The notes under the pieces are model-generated. The model did not search any database. It saw only the letters and a program-made list of their open reading frames with translations, and had not been told where the DNA came from. The translations under genes and the position numbers were made by a program. DNA of 64,000 nt from Natrinema salaciae (lineage in GTDB: Archaea; Halobacteriota; Halobacteria; Halobacteriales; Natrialbaceae): positions 558,001-622,000 of the forward strand of contig NZ_FOFD01000001.1 of assembly GCF_900110865.1 (NCBI RefSeq), in the 5' to 3' direction. Positions 12,968-51,152 of this stretch are shown one piece after another (position 1 is the stretch's first letter; each line of letters starts with the position of its first letter).

Positions 12968-13336
12968 TCAGTCCTCCGTTTCGCCTCGCTCACGCCGCTC
13001 GTCGTCCGTTTCCTCCCGATCGGATCGCTCGTCGGGCGAACTGCCGACGCCGAGTTCGGTCAGCTCCTCGAGTTCCGGCTCTGACTCCGGGTCGGCCTCG
13101 CCGGCTTCGTGGTACCGTCGGCGATCCGCGGCCGCTTTCCGTCGGCTGGCGTCCCACTCCTCGAAGAGGCCGTACTCGGTCATCGTCTCCATGCCCGCGA
13201 TCGCCGCCGTGAGCTTGATCCCGACCAGCGGAATCTCCGCGACCGAGACGATCACGTCCGCGCGGAGGATCGCGCCGTCTCTGAGCAGGACGTCGAGCAC
13301 GTCGACGAACGTCTCCTCGTCCTTTCGCGGTCTCAT
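12968..13336 (-). CDS. gvpM: Gas vesicle protein GvpM (GvpA/J family, extended C-terminus)
   Basis: 122 residues. The first 65 carry the GvpA-like fold: FVDVLDVLLRDGAILRADVI, then the beta segment VAEIPLVGIKLTAAIAGMETM. GvpM is a minor hydrophobic component thought to act in nucleation together with GvpF-L. Halobacterium GvpM is about 84 residues; here an acidic hydrophilic tail of some 45 residues is added. It is last in the leftward gvp operon, and its ATG overlaps the gvpL stop as ATGA. Its paralogues here are gvpA and gvpJ. The assignment as M rather than J rests on position at the operon end and the short N-terminus. Confidence 0.9.
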   Translation of the reverse strand: MRPRKDEETFVDVLDVLLRDGAILRADVIVSVAEIPLVGIKLTAAIAGMETMTEYGLFEEWDASRRKAAADRRRYHEAGEADPESEPELEELTELGVGSSPDERSDREETDDERRERGETED

Positions 13337-14274
13337 GGGTGCGGGTTCGTCTGATCGCTGGCAGGGGTCGTTCCGTCACCGTCGCCGCCCAGCTCCGGCG
13401 CGAACGTGTACGGCGGCCACGGCCCCGTGAACCTGACCTCGAGCCCCTCGTTCGCGGCGACGTCGTCGAGTATCGATCCGATCGCTTCCTCGTCGTCCTC
13501 GTGAGCCAGCAGCGTGAGCCGGGAAAGTGTCTCGCCGTCGGACTCGCCGGCCCCCGAACCGCTGCCGGCGACGTCGTCCGAGAGCGCCGCGCTCGGAGAG
13601 CGCTCGAGCGCGTGTACTTCCCGCGCCTCGGCGGCCAGTCGTTCTTCGAGGTCGGCGGTCAGCGATTCGCGGCGGGCCGACCGGAGCTCCGTCAGCCGCT
13701 GGTCGAACTGCTTCTCGAGCAGGAAGGCCGTTCCCTCCTCGGCGTCGTCGATCTGCTCGTCCAGTTCGCGAAGGCGGTCGTCGTGTTCGATCAGCGCGTC
13801 GTCGCCGATCGGGTCGACTTCGACGACCTCGACGCGGTACTCCCAGTGGCCGGCCAGTCCGGACAGGGCGCGCTCGAGGATCGCTTCCTCCTCGCGAAGC
13901 CACTGCCGGACGCGGTCGTCGTCCCCGCGGAGGATCGTATCGAACTGGAACGGGATCGGCGTCCCGAAGGCCTGACCCGCCTCGTCGACGACCGTCTGGT
14001 GGCGGACGAGCCAGCGTCTGATCTGTGCGAGGTCGCCCGAGTCGTAGATCCCGTCACAGGCGTGGACGACCGCACCGATGCCGTCCTCGACGACGACCGA
14101 AACCGGTTCGCCGTCGACGCCGGTCGTCTCGAAGGCGGCGTCCTCGTCGGCCGGAACGATACAGTAGAGGTACCGGCCTTCGTCGATCGCCGGCGCGTCG
14201 GCCGGCTCCGCGGTCGCCCGCTCCTCGATCGCCTCGAGGCGTTCGGTAGGGTCGTCGGACTCGCGGTCGCTCAC
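13333..14274 (-). CDS. gvpL: Gas vesicle protein GvpL (GvpF/GvpL family)
   Basis: 313 residues. The core GvpF/L fold starts after about 33 acidic residues at [11 protein letters not shown] and contains [20 protein letters not shown] and the closing WPPYTFAP segment. GvpL binds the other accessory Gvps and is thought to organise the nucleation complex. A Ser/Gly/Glu-rich insertion sits near residues 225-245. It starts with GTG, and the start overlaps the gvpK stop as GTGA, suggesting coupled translation. It is larger than its sister GvpF (207 residues), as is usual in haloarchaea. Confidence 0.93.
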
Positions 14275-14615
14275 TCGTCTTCACCCCCGAACACGGAGTA
14301 GCCGGGTTTCCGGGCGGCCGTCGGCTCGCCGTGAAGCTCCTGAATGGCGTCGTTGACCAGCCCGTCCAGGTCGCCCCGGAGGTCGTCGACGCCGTTTTCG
14401 ATCCCCTCGTCCGCTTTGAGGCGTTCGATCTCGGCCTCGATCGTGGCGAGCTGGGTGCCGAGCCGTTCGATCTCCTCGTCCGAGAGACTCCCCGACTCCA
14501 TGCGACGGACCGCCTCCCGCTCGAGCGTTTCGATCAGGATCTCGACGACGGTGACGACCAGCGTCATCAGTCCGTCCCGCGCGTCCTCGCCGTCGCCGAC
14601 GTCGATCGCCGTCAC
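14271..14615 (-). CDS. gvpK: Gas vesicle protein GvpK
   Basis: 114 residues, the normal family size. It shows the conserved [20 protein letters not shown] helix followed by [19 protein letters not shown], with a coiled-coil region to about residue 90. GvpK is an accessory protein needed for vesicle formation in most gvp clusters. It starts with GTG overlapping the gvpJ stop (GTGA) and its own stop overlaps gvpL. Confidence 0.93.
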
Positions 14616-15169
14616 GACTCGTCACCCTCCGGCTCCGGAGCGGCTCCGTCCGCCTCGGCGTCCGCGTCCTCGTCGGCCGATTCCGTCTCGTCCTCGCTCG
14701 CGTCCGACTCCGAGTCGCCGCTGAGCAGATCGAACCCGCCGCTGGTGGGTCGCTCCGGGTTCGGTCTGGAACCGAGGCGGTCGCTCACCTGTTCCCCGTC
14801 GCCGACGTCGCGGTCGCTCTCGCTCGATTCGCCGTCGTCGCTCTCGTCGGCGGCGTCCGACTCGTCCGCGGTGACGTTGACGCCGCGAGTGGGATCGATC
14901 ACCGGGTTCGGACGATCCATCTCCGCTATTTCGGGGTCGCCGGCCGCTTCTGCGACCCGGCGCATGTCCGTCCCCTCGGGGAACTCGAGACCGTACTTCG
15001 CCGCGGTCTCGAAGGAGGCGATCGCGGCCCGGACCTGGACGCCGAGCAGTTGCGTGTCGCCGATCGAGACGGCGATGTCGGCGTTGATGACGATCCCCTT
15101 GTCCAGCAGCATCTCGACGACCTCGGCGAGGTCGGTCTTCTGTCGACTGGGCTGGAAATCATTGACCAT
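14612..15169 (-). CDS. gvpJ: Gas vesicle protein GvpJ with long acidic tail
   Basis: 185 residues from the ATG at 15169. The first 70 hold the GvpA-family core ([20 protein letters not shown], then [20 protein letters not shown]). Residues 80-185 form a hydrophilic Asp/Glu/Ser-rich tail. Halobacterium GvpJ is about 114 residues, so the tail is some 70 residues longer. GvpJ is a minor shell-like protein in the accessory complex, likely at tip or seam positions (inference). I rejected the 17-residue upstream extension because [10 protein letters not shown] is the usual start style and a GATC-containing SD-like region precedes it. It is 77 bases from gvpI. Confidence 0.93.
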
Positions 15170-15246
15170 CGGGATCACCTCCGAAGCGGGTCGGCCGCTG
15201 GTCGGTCGCGCGTCTCTCACAGCCGTTCGGTCGTGGTAGTAGTTGG

Positions 15247-16194
15247 TCAGTCATCGGTCTCTCTCCGTTGGTCGCTCTCGCCGTCGTTCCGTCGCCGCCG
15301 TCGCTCTCGCTCGAGTTCGAACCGGCGGCCGTAGATCCGCTTCCGGGTGGGTGCCGTCGAGAGTTTGACGTCCTGTGGCACCGTCGAGTAGCGGGCGCCG
15401 CCGCCGAGGTCGCGTCTGTCGATCGGCATGGTCGACGACGCCGTCGGGTTCCGCGAGTTCGTGCTTCTGTCCTGTCGGCGCATCTTCTCGCGGTTGAACT
15501 CGTAGAGGCGCTCGAACGTTTCGTGGGTCTCGAGCAGCGCCGTCCGGAAGGCGTCGATCCCCCGCATCGCCTGCTGCTGGATGGCGACCTGATAGGCCTC
15601 GGGGTCCTTCGCGACGTCGATGTCGCCGAGCGCCTCCTTCGTCGCGGAGCCGGCGTCCATCCCCGTGCCGAGGACGCCGTCCTCGTCGTCCTCGAGCAGC
15701 CCGTCGTCGGTGGCGTCCGACACCGCGTCCTCGAGCATCCCGGCGTCGTCGCCGTCCTCGAGTTCGTCGATGGCGTCGTCGAGTTCGCGTTTCTCCTGCC
15801 AGATGTCGGTCAGATCCGTGGCATTCCAGGCGTTCAACAGGTCGATCGCGTCGAACAGGTCCGTGAAATCGACCAGCTCGGTCACGCCGGTCTCCTCGTC
15901 ACCCAGCACGTCGGGAATCTCGCCGAGTTCGATCGCGTCGAGGAGTTCGTCCTCGTCGACCGCGTCCGGCAGATCGCCGATGTCCATGGCCTCGAGCAAC
16001 TCGCCGACCTCCTCGGCGACACGCAGGAGGGCCTCGAGATCGCCGACGACCGTCTCGACGGTGTCGTCGTCGAGTTCGTCGATCGCCCCGCCGTCGCCGA
16101 GGGTCCCCTCGAGCCGATCGAGGCTCTCGGTCGCCTCCTCGAGCAGCGCGTCGACCGTCTCTTCGGACCCGGCGTCGGCGTGGGCATCGCTCAT
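15247..16194 (-). CDS. gvpI: Positional GvpI: large protein with acidic N-half and basic C-tail
   Basis: 315 residues between gvpH and gvpJ, exactly where gvpI lies in haloarchaeal clusters. Residues 1-200 are extremely acidic and helical, with repeated Glu/Asp/Leu segments. Residues 205-240 form a helical block (YQVAIQQQAMRGIDAFRTAL), and the last 75 residues are Arg-rich (RKRIYGRRFELERERRRRRN). Halobacterium and Haloferax GvpI are about half this size and mostly basic, so only the C-terminal part corresponds. GvpI is reported to influence vesicle length or strength and is dispensable. The N-terminal domain's function is unknown. The ATG overlaps the gvpH stop (ATGA). Confidence 0.75.
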   Translation of the reverse strand: MSDAHADAGSEETVDALLEEATESLDRLEGTLGDGGAIDELDDDTVETVVGDLEALLRVAEEVGELLEAMDIGDLPDAVDEDELLDAIELGEIPDVLGDEETGVTELVDFTDLFDAIDLLNAWNATDLTDIWQEKRELDDAIDELEDGDDAGMLEDAVSDATDDGLLEDDEDGVLGTGMDAGSATKEALGDIDVAKDPEAYQVAIQQQAMRGIDAFRTALLETHETFERLYEFNREKMRRQDRSTNSRNPTASSTMPIDRRDLGGGARYSTVPQDVKLSTAPTRKRIYGRRFELERERRRRRNDGESDQRRETDD

Positions 16195-16772
16195 TCGTCG
16201 TCACCCGCCGTCTCTTCGGTGGCCTCGTCCGCCGCCGGGTTCGGCCTGATCTGGACGGTGAGCACGCCGTTCCTGATCGTCGCCTGCGAGTCCGTCTCGC
16301 GCCAGGGGACCTCGACGCGATCGAGCTCCGTCCCGTCGACGGCGATGACGAGCATCGAATCGTCGAAGCCGACCGTGACGTCGTCCGGGTCGATACCGGC
16401 GACGTCCGCGGTGACGACCAGTTCGTCGTCGTACGATCGGGTCGCCACGTTGTGGTCGCTCGAGGGTCCGGAGGAGCGGATGCGGCGTTTGCGCGACCGA
16501 TCCGTGTCCCGATCCGGATGCCGATCGCGATCGCCGGGGCGGTCGGCGAACGGCGTCCCCTCGGGCGACTCGTCGGCGAGGTCGTCGCCCGAGCGGATCG
16601 AGATGTCGTAATCGAAGATCGTTCGATCGCTCCGCCGCCGGCCCGAGGTGGACGTCGAGCCGCTCTCGAGCGATTCCAGCGCGGACAGCAGGCTCGAGAG
16701 CCAGTGGTCGTCCTCGTAGCTGCGATCGTCGGCCGATTCGTCGCGGTCGTCGTCGGGAGTGGGTCCGCTCAT
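16191..16772 (-). CDS. gvpH: Gas vesicle protein GvpH (Hsp20-like)
   Basis: 193 residues. A variable Ser/Arg/Asp-rich N-terminal half is followed from about residue 105 by an alpha-crystallin/Hsp20-type beta sandwich: ELVVTADVAGIDPDDVTVGF, then RNGVLTVQIRPNP. GvpH acts with GvpF-M during assembly, probably as a chaperone-like factor keeping small hydrophobic Gvps soluble (inference from the Hsp20 fold). One base separates it from gvpG. Confidence 0.92.
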   Translation of the reverse strand: MSGPTPDDDRDESADDRSYEDDHWLSSLLSALESLESGSTSTSGRRRSDRTIFDYDISIRSGDDLADESPEGTPFADRPGDRDRHPDRDTDRSRKRRIRSSGPSSDHNVATRSYDDELVVTADVAGIDPDDVTVGFDDSMLVIAVDGTELDRVEVPWRETDSQATIRNGVLTVQIRPNPAADEATEETAGDDE

Positions 16773-16773
16773 G

Positions 16774-17028
16774 CTATCGTTTCACCTCCACGCGGCCGCT
16801 CGAGAGCCGCTCGTGAACGTCGCGAGCAGTCTCGAGCTCCGCTTCGAGTTCCTCTTTGCGGCGTCGGTACTCCGCTTCGGGGCGCTCGCCGAGCTCGTAC
16901 AGCAGTTGGTTCTCCTTGAGCTCGTCCTCGAGGGCCTCCACGTCGTACAGCTCGTCGAGTGCGATCGAGTGGAGCGCGTTGACGATGCCGAGGAACGGCC
17001 GGAACAGGAGGTCGTCGAGGACGAACAT
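16774..17028 (-). CDS. gvpG: Gas vesicle protein GvpG
   Basis: 84 residues, the family's usual size. The conserved N-terminus is MFVLDDLLFRPFLGIVNAL, and a charged coiled coil follows from about residue 28 to 75. GvpG belongs to the accessory nucleation complex with GvpF, J, L and M. It is two bases downstream of gvpF and one base upstream of gvpH, clearly in one transcript. Confidence 0.94.
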   Translation of the reverse strand: MFVLDDLLFRPFLGIVNALHSIALDELYDVEALEDELKENQLLYELGERPEAEYRRRKEELEAELETARDVHERLSSGRVEVKR

Positions 17029-17030
17029 GG

Positions 17031-17654
17031 TTATTGCTGGGCTCCGATTTTCACGTCGACGAAGCTGTAGGGCGCGAACGGTCCCGTGTACTGGACCAGC
17101 AGGTCGTCGTGCTCGTCCTCGAAGCTGGCGACCGCCTCGTCGAAGGCCTCGCGGTCGTCCTCGTCGACGAGGTACGAGCGGTTGAGCACGAGCCGGTCGC
17201 TGAACAGGTCGTTCTCGACGGACTGTGCGGCGATCGGCTCGAACCGATCCGCGACCTCGGCCGCGAGCGCCTCGCGGTCGACGTCGGCGTCTTCCTCGCG
17301 GACGAGTTTGAGGCCGAGTTCGATCCGCCCCTCGATGTCCGTCATCGCGCGTCGGAAGGCCGGTCGCGCCCCGCGGAGGACGTTCTTCAACTCGCGATCG
17401 CTCTCGAAGGCCATGCCGAACTGCATGGGAACGACGGTCGTGCCGCCGTCGTACGCCATGATCTCCCGGAGGACCTCGTCGTGGATCTGGGCGTCCTCGT
17501 CGGTCTCCTCGGGATCGGTCGTGTCGATGTCGGAGACGACGGCGCCGAGTCGCCGGTGGGAGATGGTGTAGACGCGCTCGGCACCGGCGACGGCCTCCGT
17601 CTCGAACTCGACCGTATCCGACTCGACGACGCCGTAGACGTATCGGTGACTCAT
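17031..17654 (-). CDS. gvpF: Gas vesicle protein GvpF (GvpF/GvpL family)
   Basis: 207 residues, first gene of the leftward operon. It has the GvpF signature RYVYGVVESD at the N-terminus, VVPMQFGMAFESDRELKNVL in the middle and the closing TGPFAPYSFVDVKI segment. GvpF contacts GvpA and the other accessory proteins at vesicle nucleation. A good Shine-Dalgarno-like GAGAGTGATC ends five bases before the ATG. That element lies inside a ten-codon leader ORF whose TGA overlaps the gvpF ATG. Confidence 0.95.
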   Translation of the reverse strand: MSHRYVYGVVESDTVEFETEAVAGAERVYTISHRRLGAVVSDIDTTDPEETDEDAQIHDEVLREIMAYDGGTTVVPMQFGMAFESDRELKNVLRGARPAFRRAMTDIEGRIELGLKLVREEDADVDREALAAEVADRFEPIAAQSVENDLFSDRLVLNRSYLVDEDDREAFDEAVASFEDEHDDLLVQYTGPFAPYSFVDVKIGAQQ

Positions 17655-17683
17655 CGATAGATCACTCTCATTCGCTGACTCAT
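17651..17683 (-). CDS. Candidate ten-codon leader ORF overlapping gvpF
   Basis: ATG at 17683 to TGA at 17651-17653 encodes MSQRMRVIYR. Its stop overlaps the gvpF start as ATGA, the same junction type used throughout this operon. The bases around its start (CGATGAGTCAGCGA) are a near-perfect copy of those at the gvpF start (CGATGAGTCACCGA), so it may simply be a small duplication. Translation is unproven. Confidence 0.3.
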   Translation of the reverse strand: MSQRMRVIYR

Positions 17684-18107
17684 CGGCGAATCACTCGCTG
17701 ACGCTGCATGGTGTTCTCTCGTACCCGAGCCGGACGCAGTAGTCGACGCTCGTTACGACGCCGCCGACAGCCGCGGGTCGATAAACGCGTGCGTAACACC
17801 TCGCGGTCGGTGATGGGACAGCTGGATGACATGGGGCTGCGATAGTCGTGCACCTCGCGGCCGACACCGGCCACGGGTGTCGTGACGAGCACTCGAGTAC
17901 CGTCGCCGACGATACGCCGCCGGCGCGGGTTATCGTGGTGCTTGCAGTCGCAGCCACGTCTCCGTCCGCCGACCGCGTGCGTTCGCGGGGCTGCTATCGG
18001 CGGCTATCGACGATCGACGCGCTACCGACGGCGCAGACGCTGGCAGCCCGAGCGGCTTGCAGTCGCAGTCCAAGCCGTGTTACGAGGGGGCAGTCTACCT
18101 CGGGTGT
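17684..18107. promoter_or_regulatory. Divergent gvpF-gvpA control region
   Basis: 424 bases between the two gvp transcription units. CGTTTATCG on the minus strand (about 17790-17798) is a TATA candidate for gvpFGHIJKLM, which would give a leader of about 110 bases. No classical TATA box is seen close to gvpA. A 13-base sequence CTTGCAGTCGCAG is repeated at 17941-17953 and 18056-18068 on the gvpA side. In Halobacterium and Haloferax this region binds GvpE, but no gvpE is present in the cluster. No protein gene is evident here. Confidence 0.55.
17941..18068 (+). repeat. Pair of 13-base direct repeats upstream of gvpA
   Basis: CTTGCAGTCGCAG occurs at 17941-17953 and again at 18056-18068, identical and in the same orientation. 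The second copy ends 39 bases before the gvpA ATG. The location fits activator or repressor binding, but one pair could also be chance or an old duplication. Confidence 0.4.
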
Positions 18108-18392
18108 ATGGCACAACCACAACGAAGACCCGACTCCTCGAGCCTCGCGGAAGTACTGGACCGCGTCCTCGACAAGGGCGTCGTCATCGACGTCTGGGCC
18201 CGAATTTCGGTCGTCGGGATCGAGCTGCTGACGATCGAGGCCCGCGTCGTCGTCGCCTCGGTCGACACCTTCCTGCACTACGCGGAGGAGATCGCAAAAA
18301 TTGAGCAGGCCACGGCGGAGGGCGATCTCGAGGAACTCGAGGAGCTCGAAGTCGAGCCTCGGCCGGAATCGTCGCCGAAATCCGCGGAGTAG
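18108..18392 (+). CDS. gvpA: Major gas vesicle shell protein GvpA
   Basis: 94 residues. The core is almost textbook: [20 protein letters not shown], then [20 protein letters not shown], then [19 protein letters not shown]. GvpA polymerises as helical ribs to form the gas-permeable, water-excluding vesicle wall that gives buoyancy. Halobacterium GvpA has about 76 residues. Here the usual short Ala/Thr tail is replaced by a 22-residue acidic tail ([20 protein letters not shown]). It is first in gvpANO, six bases before gvpN. Confidence 0.97.
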
Positions 18393-18398
18393 CTCCCG

Positions 18399-19424
18399 AT
18401 GGCCGACGACACTTCGCGCAAGCGTACGGTCCGCGGTACCAAGATCAGGGCCAGTCGCGAGCAGAAGGAAGGCCGCAGAGCGAAGAAAGAGCTCGCGCGA
18501 AAGGCATCGAGCGCCGGCGAACGAAACGGCGACAGTCCCCTCTCCGATCCGGCGGACGTCGTCCCCGAGCCGTTCGTCGAGACCGACGCCGTCAGATCGC
18601 TCCGCGATCGGATCAACGGCTGGCTCGAGGCGGACCAGCCGGTCCACCTGATCGGCCCGACGGGCTGTGGCAAGACGGCGCTCGCGCTGTCGGCGGCGGC
18701 CGAGCGCGGTCGTCCGGTCGTCTGGCTCAACGGTGACGAGGCGGTCGACACCGCCGCGCTCGTCGGCTCCCACGCCGGCGGCGAACGCTACGAAGAGCAC
18801 GACCGGTACGTCAGCGGCGTCGACAAGAAGACCCAGATCGTCCGTGAACGCTGGGTGGACAACCCGCTGTCCGTCGCGGTGCAGGAGGGTGCGACGCTCG
18901 TCTACAACGAGTTCTCGCGCAGCGACCCCGCCGCTCACAACGTCCTGCTGTCGGTCTTCGAGGAGGGCGTCCTGGAGCGACCGGGCAAGCGCGGCGACGA
19001 TCGGACGATCGACGTCCACCCCGAGTTCCGGGCGATCTTCACGTCGAACGACGTGGAGTACGCCGGCGTCCACGAACAGCAGGACGCGCTGCTCGACCGG
19101 TTCATCGGCGTCCACGTCAACTACTACGACGCGGAGACCGAACGCGAGATCGTCGGTGCGCACGTCGACCTCGCCGCGGACGACATCGCGACCATCGTCG
19201 AGAAGACGCGAGCGCTCCGCGACGAACTCGATATCGTCGTCGGCACCCGCGCCGCGATCACGGCCGCGAAGGGACTGACCGTCTTCGACGGGCACGACGA
19301 GACCGGCGAGTTCGACGACGAGACGCTGACCCACGTCTTCACGGACGTGCTCGCGCCGAAGATCACTGGCGAAGACGGCGACGACATCGACGGACTGCGA
19401 TCGCAGATCACCGAGACCATCTGA
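18399..19424 (+). CDS. gvpN: Gas vesicle AAA ATPase GvpN
   Basis: 341 residues. A basic N-terminus of about 60 residues precedes a MoxR-type AAA module with Walker A GPTGCGKT at 86-93, Walker B-like ATLVYNEFSR near 165-175, and sensor FRAIFTSNDVEYAG near 210. GvpN is thought to use ATP to enlarge nascent bicones into full-width vesicles. It follows gvpA after only six bases. In classic clusters gvpC lies between A and N; here there is no room for it. Confidence 0.95.
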   Translation: MADDTSRKRTVRGTKIRASREQKEGRRAKKELARKASSAGERNGDSPLSDPADVVPEPFVETDAVRSLRDRINGWLEADQPVHLIGPTGCGKTALALSAAAERGRPVVWLNGDEAVDTAALVGSHAGGERYEEHDRYVSGVDKKTQIVRERWVDNPLSVAVQEGATLVYNEFSRSDPAAHNVLLSVFEEGVLERPGKRGDDRTIDVHPEFRAIFTSNDVEYAGVHEQQDALLDRFIGVHVNYYDAETEREIVGAHVDLAADDIATIVEKTRALRDELDIVVGTRAAITAAKGLTVFDGHDETGEFDDETLTHVFTDVLAPKITGEDGDDIDGLRSQITETI

Positions 19425-19481
19425 CCGACGCGGAGGCGAACGAACGACACGCGAGCCACACAGCGAACTACAGCAAGACCA

Positions 19482-20027
19482 ATGGCCGAAGCCGACACGC
19501 AATCACGAGAGCAGTGCAAGGCACTCACCGAGGACGGCCAGCGCTGCTCGCGGCCGGCCCGAGACGACGGCTTTTGCTACCAACACGACGAGAGTGATCC
19601 AACAGTGAGCGACAGTCAGGCGGCCCAAGAGGAGGAACAGACGGACGAACAGGCCGAACACGGCGATGTCGAGGAGTCCCGATCCCGCGGGACGGTCAAC
19701 ATGACCGCCGAGGAGATGACCGATCCCGACGAGGTCGACGCGGACGTCGAGACCGATCGGGAGGAGATCGCGGGGATCCTCGCGGTTCGACAGACCGTCC
19801 AGTCGACCGCGGGCGAACTCATCGGTCACGAGTTCGACGGCGTCAGCGAGATCACCCCGACCGACGACGGCTGGCGCGCCGTCGTCGAAGTCGTCGAACG
19901 CCGGGCCGTCCCCGACACCCAGGACATCATCGGCCGCTACGAGATCGAACTCGACACCGACGCCACCGTCCACGGCTACCGGCGGGTCGACCGCTATCGG
20001 CGCGGCGACACCGCCCAGTTCGAGTGA
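19482..20027 (+). CDS. gvpO: Gas vesicle protein GvpO with N-terminal zinc-binding module
   Basis: 181 residues. The C-terminal 90 are the GvpO domain (AGILAVRQTVQSTAGELIGH through GYRRVDRYRRGD). The first 36 form a Cys/His motif C-x7-8-C-RPARDDGFC-xx-H typical of small zinc-binding modules (CKALTEDGQRCSRPAR, FCYQH). An acidic linker with Gln/Glu runs between. In Haloferax, GvpO affects gvpA transcript levels and is needed for vesicles. It ends the rightward unit, 57 bases after gvpN. Confidence 0.9.
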   Translation: MAEADTQSREQCKALTEDGQRCSRPARDDGFCYQHDESDPTVSDSQAAQEEEQTDEQAEHGDVEESRSRGTVNMTAEEMTDPDEVDADVETDREEIAGILAVRQTVQSTAGELIGHEFDGVSEITPTDDGWRAVVEVVERRAVPDTQDIIGRYEIELDTDATVHGYRRVDRYRRGDTAQFE

Positions 20028-20088: not shown

Positions 20089-20890
20089 TCACCGCCGCCG
20101 TCTCTTTTCGTCTCGAGGGCGTTCCGTTCGATCGCTCGGCGCGTAATTCGGAGGGTCACCGTCGACGGTGAGTACGGGTCCATCGTCGGAGCGAGGCGAA
20201 TCGCGAGGCTGGGAGTCACAGCGCCGTCCCGGGTAGTAACGCCGGGCGAGGACCTTCGCGGCGTTGAAATCGGCGGCGACGGTGTCGACGTGGCAGTCCC
20301 GATTGCTACACCGGAGGGCCGCGTTCCGTACCCGGTCGCCGAGCGCGCCGCAGGCGTGGCATTCCTGCGAAGAGTATGCGTCGGGCACTGTCGTCACCGG
20401 GATACCGTACTCAGCGGCGATAACTCGCAACCGCAGATGGGCCACAGAAAGGAGCCACGACGAGCCGCGGTGGGCGTTGGGCGCTATCAGCCACGTCCAT
20501 AGGTCCGGCCTGTAGTGGCTGTCTTCGGTGACCAACACTGAATTGTCGTAGGCGCTCGCGTACCCGCAGATCTCGTGGGCTGCGGCGTCGATCTCCGCAA
20601 CGAGGGCATCGCGGCGCTGCTGGACGTGGGCAGCGATCGTCTCGCGGTCGACGGTACTCGAGAGAGTGCGGCGGTCTCGAGTCGGAAGCCATCGAGTTAC
20701 TGACAGATATTGTCGCCACAGACCGCGTACGCGCCCCGCCAATCCGGAAGGGAGACCGGGCAGGCTGTATAGAGGTTGTATTCGCCGAGGTCGACGCCGA
20801 TCGGAGTTTCGTCACGGCCATTCTGATCGGCGTACGTGAATCGTAGCGATGCGTCTCTCGTGTCGGGGCTTAAGGCCCCGTGAATTGTCG
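20089..20890 (-). pseudogene. Decayed IS200/IS605-type TnpB (RNA-guided nuclease) gene
   Basis: Reading leftward, one frame shows SPDTRDASLRFTYADQ and the RuvC-I segment TPIGVDLGEYNLYTACP. It then meets an in-frame TAA (20697-20699). A frameshift near 20655 moves into the frame that carries RETIAAHVQQRRDALVAEI, the RuvC-II glutamate (VLVTEDSHYRP), the zinc finger (CHACG and CSNRDC) and the RuvC-III region DTVAADFNAAKVLARR, ending at 20089. The N-terminal third is missing. A GGGGC-TTAAG-GCCCC hairpin at 20868-20882 lies at the 5' boundary. With a stop, a frameshift and a truncation it cannot make an active nuclease. No tnpA is nearby. Confidence 0.85.
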
Positions 20891-21121
20891 TCGGACATGG
20901 CTCGTCCCACAGCTACGCGAGCCGCGCGGGCCGGTGCCATCACACCGGTCTGCATGTTCATCCGACTATCTGCCGGTCTGGTTTGCTTGCGACTTGCGCT
21001 ATCCGAGTAGTCCTCGCTCGACATAACTGTGTTGACGATACCGTAAATTTGAGTAGCCAATATCGACAATACATTACATGCTACCGACAAGTGTAAGGAG
21101 AATTCTGACAGTGTGGGGGTA

Positions 21122-21391
21122 ATGAGGAAGCGGGCGGACTGGATGGTCAAAGCCGATGAAGTGATCCTTGAGGTCCTCGAGGGCGGTCTCATGCTCGGCC
21201 CTACGGCAATCGCGAAGAACGGCGATCTGTCTCGGCAGCACGTGACAAACAGAGTATCTATTCTGATGGCGTACGGATTCGTAGAGCGAGTCGAAGAGGG
21301 TTACTACCAGATCACCGATCGTGGACGGGCGTGGCTCGAGGGTGAGATCGACGCAAGTGAACTCGATCCTACCGGGGATCGATACGAGTAA
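21122..21391 (+). CDS. PhiH1-repressor-like winged-helix protein
   Basis: 89 residues forming one winged helix-turn-helix: ADEVILEVLEGGLMLGPTAI, then the recognition segment DLSRQHVTNRVSILMAYGFV, then wing and ITDRGRAWLEGEIDASEL. It aligns along its length with the protein at 50892-51152 and with repressors of the haloarchaeal phage phiH1 family. I chose the ATG at 21122 because it gives the same N-terminus (MRxxADWM) as that paralogue. GGGGG lies just upstream. It is probably a DNA-binding repressor of an element now mostly lost; the TnpB remnant next door supports an accessory region. Confidence 0.85.
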   Translation: MRKRADWMVKADEVILEVLEGGLMLGPTAIAKNGDLSRQHVTNRVSILMAYGFVERVEEGYYQITDRGRAWLEGEIDASELDPTGDRYE

Positions 21392-26450: not shown

Positions 26451-27743
26451 TCAGTCGTCCGCAGACGCTACTGCCGACGACTCCGTCTGCTCGTCCTCGA
26501 CCTCCTCGATCCCCTCGACGGATTCGTCGTCGCACAGCGCCGCCTCGGCGTCGGGTTCGAGTTCGTTGACGACCGACCGACCGTCCTTCTCGCGGACGAC
26601 CAGTCCGTCGTCTTCGAGCGCGGCGAGGTGATGCGAGACGGTGCTCGGATCACGCTCGAGTTCGTCCGCGAGCCGGCCGTTGTGCGCCCGGCCCAGGCCG
26701 GCGAGCGCCTCCAGCACGTCGCGTTTGGCCGGTTCCGCGAGGGCGGCTCGCAGTTCGGCGTCGGCCGCGTCCCGGAAGTAGCGGCGCTTCCCGTTGAGCT
26801 TGGCCGCGGTTATCAGATCCTCCGCTTCGAGGATCCGAACGTGGTACCGGACCGTCGAAAGGGGGATGTCGGTGTCGTCGCTGAGCTGCGAGAGGTACGA
26901 CCCCGGGTCGTCGCGGATCGCCTCGTAAATCGCCCGGCGGCGATCGTGCTCGAGCGGATCGGAGTCGTCGTACTGACTGTACCGGAACAGCGGCAGCATC
27001 TTCCAGAGGTCCCCGGCTCGGCGGAGCGGGCCCGTCCCGCGGAGAGTGTGCAGCCACCCGGCCGTCGCAGTGGTCCCGCTCCCGGCAGCGCCGGTCGCAC
27101 CGGACGCGCCGGCCCCGCCCGCCGCCCCGGAGGCGGTGATCGCCCCGAGCAGTCCGACCAGTACCGCGTCCGTCGCCGTCTCGGTCGCGCCGGGCGTCCC
27201 GGAGCCGTCGGAGTCGCCGCTCCCGTCGGCGCTCGCGTTCTCGGCCGTCGACTCACCGGCGCTCGAGCCGTCGTCGTGGGGACTCGAGGGTCGTCCGTCG
27301 GTTTCGACTTCGGCGTCGGCCTCGAGGCCGGTGTCCAGCGGCGTCTCGTTGACGGTCCGGTCGACAGCCCCCTCCGTCCGATCGACCGTCGTCCCGGTGG
27401 TGTTCTCGAGTTCGTCGGTCGTCGTCCCGGTGGTGTTCTCGAGTTCGTCGATCGTCGTCTCGGTGGTGTTCTCGAGTTCGTCGATCGTCGTCTCGGTGGT
27501 GTTCTCGAGTTCGTCGGTCGTCGTCCCGGTGGTGTTCTCGAGTTCGTCGGTCGTATTTTCGACGGTCTCCGTCGGCTCGTCGATGGAGTCGTCGACCGAA
27601 TCAGTCGTCGAGAGCGCCGCTCCCGTCAGTGTCGAGCCGGCGCTCGCGGACGCGGCCGCGATCCCCGCGGTCGCACCGCCGAGTACCATCGCGACGGCGA
27701 CCCACACGAGCACGCGCGTCGCGATCGACGAATCCCGTTTCAT
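26451..27743 (-). CDS. Membrane-anchored winged-helix transcriptional regulator with repeat-rich outer domain
   Basis: 430 residues. A signal anchor ([20 protein letters not shown]) leads to an outer region with five 12-residue repeats of the type [11 protein letters not shown] (residues about 62-120), rich in N-x-T glycosylation sites, then Ser/Gly/Asp linkers. A weak second hydrophobic stretch ([20 protein letters not shown]) follows near residue 190. The cytoplasmic C-terminal half holds two winged helices: [20 protein letters not shown] to [14 protein letters not shown], and [20 protein letters not shown] to [14 protein letters not shown]. It thus looks like a one-component transmembrane regulator that could sense the surface and bind DNA (inference). 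The tandem-winged-helix half resembles a known haloarchaeal family. Confidence 0.85.
27391..27566 (-). repeat. Five 36-base tandem repeats inside the membrane regulator gene
   Basis: The unit, beginning GGTGGTGTTCTCGAGTTCGT on the plus strand, recurs every 36 bases about five times with a few substitutions, all in frame. It encodes the 12-residue Thr/Glu/Asn repeat. Copy number may vary by slippage or recombination. Confidence 0.85.
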
Positions 27744-27886
27744 ACCAGTCGTCCGGTTATGTGCGATCGACGGTAATACGCTTTTTCCGTTCCCTGACAG
27801 TCACGAAATCCGACTGGCGGCCGACTCGAGCCGGCCGTGGAGCGGATCCAGCAAGCTATTTCCGCGTCGGGCGGCCGAATTCGGGT

Positions 27887-32902: not shown

Positions 32903-33481
32903 ATGTCGAACCTACCGACCCGCCGCGGGTTTCTCGCGATCACTGGTACCGGTACGGCCGCGTCGCTGGCCGGCTGTTCGCAACTCGAGTCGATCACGCA
33001 GGAGGGCTCGGAGAACCCCGACGAGGCGGTCACCGTGACGGTCCAGCCGGAGCGTGAGGAACTGCAGCGTCTCGAGGAAGAGATCCGGGCCGACCTCGAC
33101 GAGGGCACCCTCAGCCAGCAGGAGGCGGGACGGGTGTTTCGGGAGAGACAGGTCGAGTTGACCGAAGCGGCCGTGGCGTCGTTCGAGGAATCGGTCGCCG
33201 GGAGTGAACTCTCGGTCGCGGAGTCGAGGCCGGAGTACGGGCTGCTTCGCGTGACGGGCCCCGACGTGGCGATCATGGAGTCGCTCCGAAACGGCGACGT
33301 GAGCGGTATCTATCCCGGTGAGCGGTACGAACTGATCGTCCAGCAGCAGCAACAGCGCGAGCAGCGACAGGAGATGCTCGAGCAACAGCAGGAGGCACAG
33401 GAGACGGACGGCGAGACGAACGAGTCCGACGCCGGGAACGAGACCGACGGAACCGACGCCGGGAACGAAACTGACGAGTAG
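32903..33481 (+). CDS. Tat-type lipoprotein with Gln/Glu-rich coiled tail
   Basis: 192 residues. The N-terminus RRGFLAITGTGTAASLAGC contains a twin-arginine and a lipobox with Cys near residue 26, so it should be exported folded and lipid-anchored on the outside. Residues 55-140 are helical and include SLRNGDVSGIYPGERYELIV. Residues 145-165 are a Gln-rich coiled coil, and the last 30 are Asn/Asp/Thr-rich. Function unknown; similar small haloarchaeal lipoproteins exist. Confidence 0.8.
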   Translation: MSNLPTRRGFLAITGTGTAASLAGCSQLESITQEGSENPDEAVTVTVQPEREELQRLEEEIRADLDEGTLSQQEAGRVFRERQVELTEAAVASFEESVAGSELSVAESRPEYGLLRVTGPDVAIMESLRNGDVSGIYPGERYELIVQQQQQREQRQEMLEQQQEAQETDGETNESDAGNETDGTDAGNETDE

Positions 33482-49037: not shown

Positions 49038-49360
49038 ATGGTGTCGGGGTGAGAGCCGTGCCCTTATGTGCCTTCCGGCGATCTCGAACCGTAACACTCG
49101 ATCGTCACCCGGCGAACGTCCGCGACCGTCGGTGTCCGACTCGAGAACGAGGATCGGGACGCTGCGGTTCGCTTGGACGAACGCTGCCGACCCTTTCCAT
49201 CGGGGTGGATCACTGGTATTACAGCCACGATTGCGGGACTAACGATCGGAATACACCTATTACCGTTCTCGTCCCGTCTGCCGAATTCGAGTGTTTCTCG
49301 CGCGAAACGTTCGAACGAATTGTCCGATTTTTGCAGCCCGACGACGGCACCATCGATGCA
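49038..49360. other. Spacer upstream of the DUF7282 protein gene
   Basis: 323 bases with no supported gene. The part just upstream of the next ATG (49300-49355) is less GC-rich and could hold a promoter, but no clear TATA box stands out. Confidence 0.35.
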
Positions 49361-50005
49361 ATGTCACGCGCAAGACCAGTCGGCGTCGCAGTCGTCGCGA
49401 TGCTCGTCCTGCTCACGGGGGCGAGCATCGCGTTCGCCGCGGCAGACGCCGGCACGGCGGCCCAAGACAACGAGACGGAGAACGAAACGGCCAACGAGAC
49501 GGCGAACGAAACGGCCGAGATCACGTTCGAGAACCAGACGTCGAACGGGACCGCAGTCGTGGTCAACAACACGACGCTGCCCGAAGGTGGCTTCGCCGTC
49601 ATCCACGCAGCCGAGCCCGCCGACGCGGACAACACAACGGAGGGTGCGAACGCCACCGAGAACGAGACGATGGAGGGAGCGAACGAGACCGTGACCGACA
49701 TGTCCGCGGAGTACGTGCCCGGGGAAGTCCTGGGTAACTCCACCTTCCTGGACGCCGGCGATCACGAGAACGTGTCCGTCGAACTCGACCAGCCCCTCGA
49801 GGAGAGCCAGGTGTTGATCGCGATGGCCCACCAGGACACCAACGGCAACGAGACGTACGAGTTCCCCGAGGCCGACGACCCCTACACGACCGACGGCGAG
49901 CCGGTGATCGACGACGCACTGGTCACGCTCGAGGAGGGGATGAACGAGACGGCCGATAACGAAACGATGGCCACCGAAACGACCGATAACGAGACGGGGA
50001 TGTAG
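49361..50005 (+). CDS. Secreted DUF7282-type surface protein
   Basis: 214 residues. A Sec signal peptide (VAVVAMLVLLTGASIAFAA) is followed by an Asn/Glu/Thr-rich stretch and a DUF7282-like beta domain from about 50 to 180: ITFENQTSNGTAVVVNNTTL, GGFAVIHAAE, VPGEVLGNSTFLDAGDHENV, QVLIAMAHQDTNGNETYEFP. More than a dozen N-x-T/S sequons suggest heavy glycosylation. It may be a soluble or loosely bound surface protein. The family is common in haloarchaea and functionally unknown. Confidence 0.83.
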   Translation: MSRARPVGVAVVAMLVLLTGASIAFAAADAGTAAQDNETENETANETANETAEITFENQTSNGTAVVVNNTTLPEGGFAVIHAAEPADADNTTEGANATENETMEGANETVTDMSAEYVPGEVLGNSTFLDAGDHENVSVELDQPLEESQVLIAMAHQDTNGNETYEFPEADDPYTTDGEPVIDDALVTLEEGMNETADNETMATETTDNETGM

Positions 50006-50891: not shown

Positions 50892-51152
50892 ATGCGGGTT
50901 TCTGCTGACTGGATGGTTTTAGCCGACGACAGAATCCTCGAGTTCTTGGACGAGAATGGCCCCCGATCGCCGACGAAAATCAAAGAAGAAGGGCCGATCC
51001 CCTTTTCGCGACAACATATCAACAACCGATGTATGAAACTCGAAGAGTACGGCCTGACCCAGAACATCGGAAACGGTGTTTACACGATCACCGACGATGG
51101 CGAACGCTACCTTCAGGGGGAACTCGACGCGAGAACGTTAGCGGGTGAGTGA
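50892..51152 (+). CDS. PhiH1-repressor-like winged-helix protein (second copy)
   Basis: 86 residues: ADDRILEFLDENGPRSPTKI, the recognition segment PFSRQHINNRCMKLEEYGLT, and wing/ITDDGERYLQGELDARTLAG. It aligns end to end with the protein at 21122-21391 (shared MRxxADWM, SRQH, NR, ITDxGxxxLxGExDA). It should be a small dimeric repressor. The upstream dyad is a likely target. Confidence 0.87.
   Translation: MRVSADWMVLADDRILEFLDENGPRSPTKIKEEGPIPFSRQHINNRCMKLEEYGLTQNIGNGVYTITDDGERYLQGELDARTLAGE

Follow-up and report, generated by a model that had tools for sequence, protein, structure and literature searches.

Architecture and Topology of the Regulator

One gene in the window, which is the whole 64,000-nucleotide stretch of the Natrinema salaciae genome (4.86 Mb, 11 contigs) that was analysed, probably encodes a transcription factor that is tethered to the membrane by a single pass in type-I orientation (N-out, C-in) and has a physically read stalk, and this is the reading that best accounts for the evidence presented below. 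Its open reading frame begins with ATG and specifies, from the N-terminus, a signal peptide, a repeat stalk, an acidic linker, a hydrophobic segment, a juxtamembrane motif, two winged helices and an acidic tail (Table 1). The conservation of this layout, the helical pattern of the stalk and its variation in length emerge from sequence comparison, which makes the architecture clear and the predicted topology very likely. We regard the protein as belonging to a known kind, the transmembrane transcription regulators (TTRs), in a form that we did not find described; searches of open-licence papers, mostly at the level of listings, brought up none on this regulator family.

Table 1. Features of the regulator gene, its upstream region and three related loci. 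Coordinates are window positions, except in the last row, where they are given by locus.
Feature	Coordinates	Strand	Basis
Whole gene, 430-aa membrane-tethered (putative) tandem winged-helix regulator	26451..27743	-	ORF, Pfam, relatives
Signal peptide, residues 1-30 (end by eye)	27654..27743	-	Hydropathy; K/R at start, hydrophobic core, A-x-A region
33-bp (11-aa) tandem repeats, one N-T-T sequon per unit	27387..27554	-	TRF; lag 11
Predicted continuous helical stalk, residues 64-127	27363..27554	-	AlphaFold; spectral peak
Acidic linker of low complexity, from stalk to membrane, residues 128-192	27168..27362	-	Sequence; low pLDDT
Transmembrane candidate, residues 193-215, Ala/Gly-rich, GLLG motif	27099..27167	-	Hydropathy
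Juxtamembrane 11-residue motif, residues 255-265	26949..26981	-	Alignment
First winged helix, residues 264-335, HVO_0163-type	26739..26954	-	PF24266; pLDDT
Second winged helix, residues 338-395, ArsR-type	26559..26732	-	PF01022, NF033788, ArsR/SmtB folds
C-terminal Ala-Asp-Asp end	26454..26462	-	Family comparison
Conserved promoter core GGAAAAAGCGTATTAC, BRE/TATA-like (presumed)	27772..27789	-	Alignment of 36 upstream regions
Palindrome TGACWGTCA, candidate operator, just upstream of core	27795..27803	.	Upstream alignment
Subtilase-regulator loci	L107:1201-4798, L111:2250-4613, L119:839-4703		Pfam

The comparisons rest on genome collections with one genome per species. A set of 48 ortholog-like proteins consists of L001 and those of L004-L059 for which a protein was found, minus L048 (weak signal-peptide and transmembrane scores) and L055 (no hit). 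Loci L033-L039, from the genome of N. salaciae itself, lie outside this set, as do the 20 lower-scoring loci L060-L079, of which at least three (L060, L061, L066) are likely orthologs and the others paralogs. From a second set of 60 loci, 10 were left out to give the relatives: the duplicates L110 and L141, and eight without a confident start, truncated or divergent (L125, L132, L134, L138, L139, L146, L148, L149). When the cytoplasmic domain was used as a search profile at a threshold of E <= 1e-40, matches were found in 66 of the 125 genomes of the taxonomic family (17 of 29 genera). At the level of the order, 62 of the 293 genomes sampled gave a match, and these came from 26 of 87 genera, with named relatives that include Halorarius, Halocatena, Natronomonas, Haloglomus, Haladaptatus, Halosimplex, Halostella and Salinigranum. 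The N. salaciae genome has a single match at this threshold; its next helix-turn-helix relative (L002) has a frame of 205 aa, which leaves no room for a stalk and ends in WDSY, not in -AD.

Both hydrophobic segments of the original prediction were recovered by hydropathy. The first, proposed as an N-terminal signal anchor, starts at residue 12 (mean KD 2.07 over 17 aa) and lacks a lipobox Cys, the sole Cys in the whole protein being residue 404. The second starts at residue 193 and is moderately hydrophobic (KD 1.66 over 19 aa). AlphaFold places no helix at this transmembrane candidate in the N. salaciae protein (pLDDT about 40), and a GLLG-type motif lies within it in 45 of the 48 orthologs. 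Among 49 of the 50 relatives (L128, which has no anchor match, is out of the count), the start is signal-peptide-like in 48, a transmembrane-like segment is present in 40, and the cytoplasmic side of the candidate is the more positively charged in 46. Four distant, short members (L137, L145, L147, L150) have ectodomains of 16-59 aa and no clear transmembrane segment. The original prediction had named two observations that would speak against it. One was a cytoplasmic N-terminus, and the signal-peptide-like starts of the relatives point the other way. The other was a separately made winged-helix half, which gains no support from an internal start: just one further ortholog of the 48 (L029) has a counterpart of the internal Met 249, so no conserved internal start is apparent there.

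A Probably Helical, Sequon-Rich Stalk of Variable Length

The stalk had been described as five in-frame repeats of 36 bases. About five copies are indeed present, but the unit is 33 bp, or 11 residues (5.1 copies, 97% matches, score 308 by TRF), and self-similarity of the stalk at lag 11 stands well above composition shuffles (z = 11.6). The same lag was best in 32 of the 48 ortholog stalks, and another lag was best in 16. AlphaFold predicts a single long helix with pLDDT of 55-85 per block of ten residues, and a helical hydrophobicity peak was also found in the spectrum of the N. salaciae stalk; we consider a helical stalk likely in this protein. The mean hydrophobicity spectrum of the 48 stalks has one peak, at 3.6-3.67 residues per turn with a power of 10.5 (shuffled controls: mean 1.0, maximum 1.53), an average around which individual stalks vary. 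Among 16 named members of the family, a strong peak in the helical band was seen in nine and was absent in seven (L094, L097, L098, L100, L101, L103, L105). The hydrophobic stripe of the helix is mostly Thr, and a stable coiled coil is therefore uncertain. A Pfam Apolipoprotein match on the stalk (27.9 bits, cut-off 90) was set aside as a product of composition and the 11-mer pattern, not of homology.

The N-x-T richness noted earlier held up: residues 31-190 contain eight sequons as compared to a shuffled mean of 2.6 (P 0.0006, an optimistic value given that the repeat units are copies). Across the 48 stalks we counted 424 sequons, as compared to 154 +/- 10 after shuffling; the reversed motif gave 145. 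These figures, like those on sequon placement below, are descriptive and not strict tests, since related sequences and copied units are treated as independent. The cytoplasmic parts of the same proteins hold 11 sequons in 8,356 residues, so that sequon density in the stalks is about 30 times higher. Where the local helical moment was clear, 265 of 281 sequon Asn residues fell on the polar half, at an angle of over 90 degrees to the hydrophobic stripe. Any amphipathic helix has its polar residues there; what matters here is that the candidate sites for glycans are found on that side as well.

Stalk length, with the stalk taken to begin 22 residues after the first hydrophobic window opens and to end 15 residues short of the second, ranges from 102 to 484 aa among the 48 proteins (CV 0.39), as compared to 166-206 aa for the cytoplasmic part (CV 0.05). 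Two orthologs with 97% identity in the cytoplasmic part (L052 and L058) have stalks of 255 and 310 aa, a difference of 5 x 11, and another pair at similar cytoplasmic identity (L056 and L057) has nearly equal stalks of 148 and 151 aa. Together with the charge bias and the sequon density, the stalk lengths of close species lend good support to the earlier proposal of a membrane-tethered factor with a variable outer stalk. We also asked how many indels have helix-compatible lengths (120 of 224 gaps of at least 4 in 52 close pairs match the listed steps), and do not use this count as evidence because it has no null and the list of steps is generous.

Two further proteins in the window carry repeats. 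One (49049-50005) has a hydrophobic segment followed by N-E-T repeats, and the other (32903-33481) is small and lipoprotein-like, with a tail of NETD repeats at its C-terminus.

The Cytoplasmic Head and Its C-Terminal End

The tandem winged helices were confirmed by profile matches. PF24266 (HTH_HVO_0163_N) matches residues 267-335 with 53.7 bits (gathering cut-off 31), PF01022 (ArsR HTH_5) has its best stretch at 338-382, and NF033788 (ArsR) scores 76 bits (cut-off 55). The PDB matches of the predicted structure include a CzrA/SmtB-like fold, and block pLDDT exceeds 90 from residue 271 on. In ArsR/SmtB metalloregulators, a Cys metal site lies in the DNA-binding domain, and other sites use Asp/His. 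The single Cys of the regulator lies C-terminal to its second winged helix. In the juxtamembrane Y..DDSDPL motif, Y, S, D, D, S, D, P and L are invariant in all 28 aligned sequences; in a wider set of 51 sequences, only Y255, P263 and L264 remain so.

The protein ends in a short motif, [AS]D or [AS]DD. Of 57 family members, 84% have this ending, and among the 48 orthologs the share is 96%. In the background, 362 putative genes picked by acidity at these loci, it is 2%. The 57 come from the 60 loci, with L146, L148 and L149 out and the duplicates L110 and L141 kept. By eye, the tails that precede this ending do not align, so the ending itself looks selected. A role as a signal for docking or degradation is conjecture. 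In one ortholog (L015), the frame runs on for about 40 residues beyond PADD.

Other Spacers on the Same Head

Members from outside the taxonomic family, and paralogs within it, carry the same kind of transmembrane candidate, motif and winged-helix pair after very different low-complexity ectodomains, with repeats such as KPDKPG (L113), SDTSDSPDDSDP (L114), SEETETETEA (L144) and GEGVSVGGESGIHAEV (L136); Natrinema paralogs have spacers of Lys/Pro or Asp/Ser/Pro repeats. The GEGVSVGGESGIHAEV units, from Haloglomus (L136:4708-6570), form a predicted beta-repeat stalk whose spectrum peaks at period 2 and for which AlphaFold gives regular short strands, with block pLDDT reaching 76, followed by a helix at 380-400 (pLDDT about 50). 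The helical peak is found again in the distant members L118, L129, L130, L133, L135 and L143. From these comparisons, the stalk appears to be a module that is interchangeable among lineages, while the transmembrane candidate and the winged-helix pair stay. According to a study of the Haloferax S-layer, archaeal S-layer proteins outside the haloarchaea combine immunoglobulin arrays with either coiled coils or a beta-helix, together with a transmembrane anchor (PMC8640222).

Proposed Mechanism and Alternatives

Most archaea have the S-layer for their main wall. To our knowledge, how these organisms sense the state of that wall is largely open. In the reading that we prefer, a Sec-type signal peptide would export the N-terminal half of the regulator. 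The exported half would be an extended stalk. In this protein, as in roughly two of every three orthologs, the stalk would take the form of an 11-residue (hendecad) amphipathic alpha-helix, one face of which carries Leu, Val, Ile and Thr and the opposite face acidic residues and sequons for N-glycosylation. This stalk would probably form a glycosylated coiled-coil oligomer across the S-layer space. A single Ala/Gly-rich helix would pass through the membrane, and the conserved juxtamembrane segment would link it to the tandem winged helices, which would bind DNA from the membrane. The stalk would most likely be read physically, through its extension, packing or oligomeric state as set by the envelope, and not through a ligand pocket; its length would shift through gain and loss of repeats. 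The topology in the cell, the oligomer, the occupancy of the glycan sites, the sensing and the DNA targets are what we infer from the comparisons above, and sensing through the stalk is plausible, at roughly even chances. Several observations weigh against this reading: the transmembrane candidate is Gly/Ala-rich, moderately hydrophobic and without a predicted helix, the stripe is mostly Thr, some stalks have another best lag or no clear helical peak, four distant relatives have hardly any ectodomain, and the promoter palindrome described below is missing from part of the loci. If the reading is right, a conserved link from surface stalk to DNA within one protein would offer a genetically simple handle, as its stalk varies in nature like a ruler and its cytoplasmic module is portable. 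Independently of this, the conserved C-terminal end offers another lead.

A more far-reaching version, which we offer only tentatively and think rather unlikely, is a family of archaeal surface-strain sensors in which interchangeable stalks (alpha-hendecad, beta-repeat or disordered acidic) spanning the S-layer would couple the mechanical or packing state of that layer, via one membrane helix, to the DNA-binding head. Gain and loss of 33-bp repeats would tune the sensitivity, and the -Ala-Asp(-Asp) end would dock or destroy the head.

Alternatively, the protein could be a latent, membrane-held precursor, in which a surface event such as loss of the stalk to a secreted protease would lead to intramembrane cleavage and free a soluble winged-helix half. 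This would fit the transmembrane candidate, which is Ala/Gly-rich and strongly conserved with small residues, as well as the long exposed linker and the conserved -[AS]D(D) end, which could serve degradation or docking. It would also fit the subtilase genes that adjoin the regulator, by Pfam, in Halorarius (L107), Haloglomus (L111) and Haladaptatus (L119), three among the 14 non-family or paralog loci with listed neighbours; a neighbour in L127 is subtilase-like by eye. However, the five neighbours scanned in the window (mutS, GNAT, patatin, LiaF-like and CHY zinc finger) include no protease, and the survey of TTRs argues that such regulators work from the membrane (PMC10269533). We judge regulated proteolysis to be a doubtful alternative.

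It is similarly unlikely, in our estimation, that the stalk serves only to space and to carry glycans, as a neutral element prone to slippage, with a winged-helix repressor or activator merely placed at the membrane and regulated from the cytoplasm. The quick turnover of the stalk (mean pairwise identity of 0.34, versus 0.67 in the cytoplasmic part) is in keeping with such a passive tether, as are spacer types that differ by genus. Yet helical phase and sequon placement persist in the 48-ortholog average, and even the shortest of these stalks retains 102 aa, neither of which is expected under pure drift. The physically read stalk remains our preferred reading, and the question of its possible targets is taken up with the gene neighbourhood.

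Promoter and Gene Neighbourhood

Alignment of the upstream regions of 36 of the 39 mutS-linked loci (L012, L017 and L042 were looked at separately) revealed a conserved core, GAAACGGAAAAGCGTATTACG, which we take to be a BRE/TATA promoter element, with TGAC[AT]GTCA before it. Allowing one mismatch, the palindrome TGACWGTCA is present in 23 of the 36 regions, as compared to a mean of 0.9 and a maximum of 4 in mononucleotide shuffles, a null to be read with the relatedness of the upstream sequences in mind; it is missing (two or more mismatches) in the other 13. In L012 and L017, where the gap to mutS is 370 and 318 bp, the palindrome still lies 59 bp upstream of the regulator start, and it thus goes with the regulator promoter. 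It was not found in the Halovivax loci examined or in those from outside the taxonomic family. A palindrome at the regulator's own promoter suggests autoregulation as the simplest reading. A search of the N. salaciae genome for a wider regulon with the motif TGACWGTCANGAAA returned 11 rows, namely the own site (exact), its other strand with one mismatch, and nine one-mismatch rows at eight places, near which no common theme was seen by eye; the reversed control gave 1 + 1 rows. These sites form no coherent set, and we rejected them as a regulon.

The neighbourhood itself raises the possibility that the regulator controls the divergent mutS, the linked gas-vesicle cluster or both, a proposal that concerns targets and is compatible with the membrane-tethered reading. 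A mutS gene lies head to head, upstream of the regulator, in 38 of the 48 loci, with gaps of 122-168 bp in 34 loci, 204-370 bp in three and 1.6 kb in one, and a convergent CHY zinc-finger gene lies downstream in 30 of the 48; flanks in L004-L032 extend only about 1.5 kb, such that absent neighbours there may reflect truncation. At least 44 of the 66 genomes with the regulator have a GvpA-family gene no more than 10 kb away from it. Such a gene is present in 112 of the 125 genomes of the taxonomic family, however, so its presence hardly discriminates, and 50 of these 112 lack the regulator. In four genomes the regulator is matched and GvpA is not: G063, G069, G110, and G006, whose regulator match is a more distant member. 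The gvpF-gvpA intergenic region contains no copy of the palindrome even when one mismatch is allowed, the Halovivax loci examined show no link to mutS, and both linkages may be inherited synteny. We therefore consider local control of mutS or gas vesicles improbable.

Gas-vesicle control by a replacement of GvpD/E was also considered and dropped. Matches to PF07088 (GvpD) are weak (best 32.7 bits, cut-off 24) in 60 of the 125 genomes, and the N. salaciae genome has none; since PF07088 finds no clear GvpD, no contrast with GvpD was drawn.

The gas-vesicle genes of the window lie at 12968-20027, where GvpA is backed by PF00741 and the other names were given by eye. The cluster is apparently full, with gvpM-L-K-J-I-H-G-F on the minus strand and gvpA, gvpN and gvpO on the plus strand. 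Between it and the regulator is what looks, by eye, like a TnpB transposon remnant (20089-20742), and a pair of similar small winged-helix-like proteins was noted by eye at 21113-21391 and 50892-51152. In related loci from outside the taxonomic family, a dCTP deaminase-like gene lies beside the regulator in L109, and similar deaminase-like proteins were seen nearby, by eye, in L107, L108, L111, L118, L120 and L127.

Comparison With Known Systems

A survey of TTRs counted 1,384 such proteins in archaea and found single-pass proteins to be the commonest class (PMC10269533). Like them, the regulator combines a DNA-binding domain with at least one transmembrane region in one protein, the latter called here by hydropathy. 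Unlike the TTRs that the survey describes, it has a signal peptide, a long repeat stalk and a C-terminal tandem winged-helix pair (PMC10269533). The passages of the survey drawn on here describe no such haloarchaeal family, and 'halo' has 0 occurrences in its main text (PMC10269533); another paper that names a related term only cites the survey (PMC10694973).

ArnR and ArnR1 of Sulfolobus are experimentally studied archaeal membrane-bound one-component regulators, and the present protein would be of the same general type (PMC6396743). Their helix-turn-helix domain is N-terminal (PMC13286277), whereas the winged-helix pair of the regulator is C-terminal (residues 264-395), and the accounts of ArnR and ArnR1 drawn on here mention no repeat stalk (PMC6396743; PMC13286277). 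In its DNA-binding part, the regulator has the same two domains as HVO_0163-type and ArsR regulators (PF24266, PF01022). HVO_0163 itself, called ArsR-type, increased in abundance after hypochlorite (PMC10294847).

The closest likeness to the predicted stalk is tetrabrachion of Staphylothermus, a helical surface stalk with 11-residue repeats that forms a right-handed coiled coil and binds a subtilisin-family protease (PMC5744192). Tetrabrachion is an S-layer protein with large arms and not a regulator, and its four-helix structure has been shown, whereas the stalk of the regulator is predicted only (PMC5744192). The regulator would carry no S-layer arms, with only about 33 residues between its signal peptide and the helix predicted by AlphaFold.
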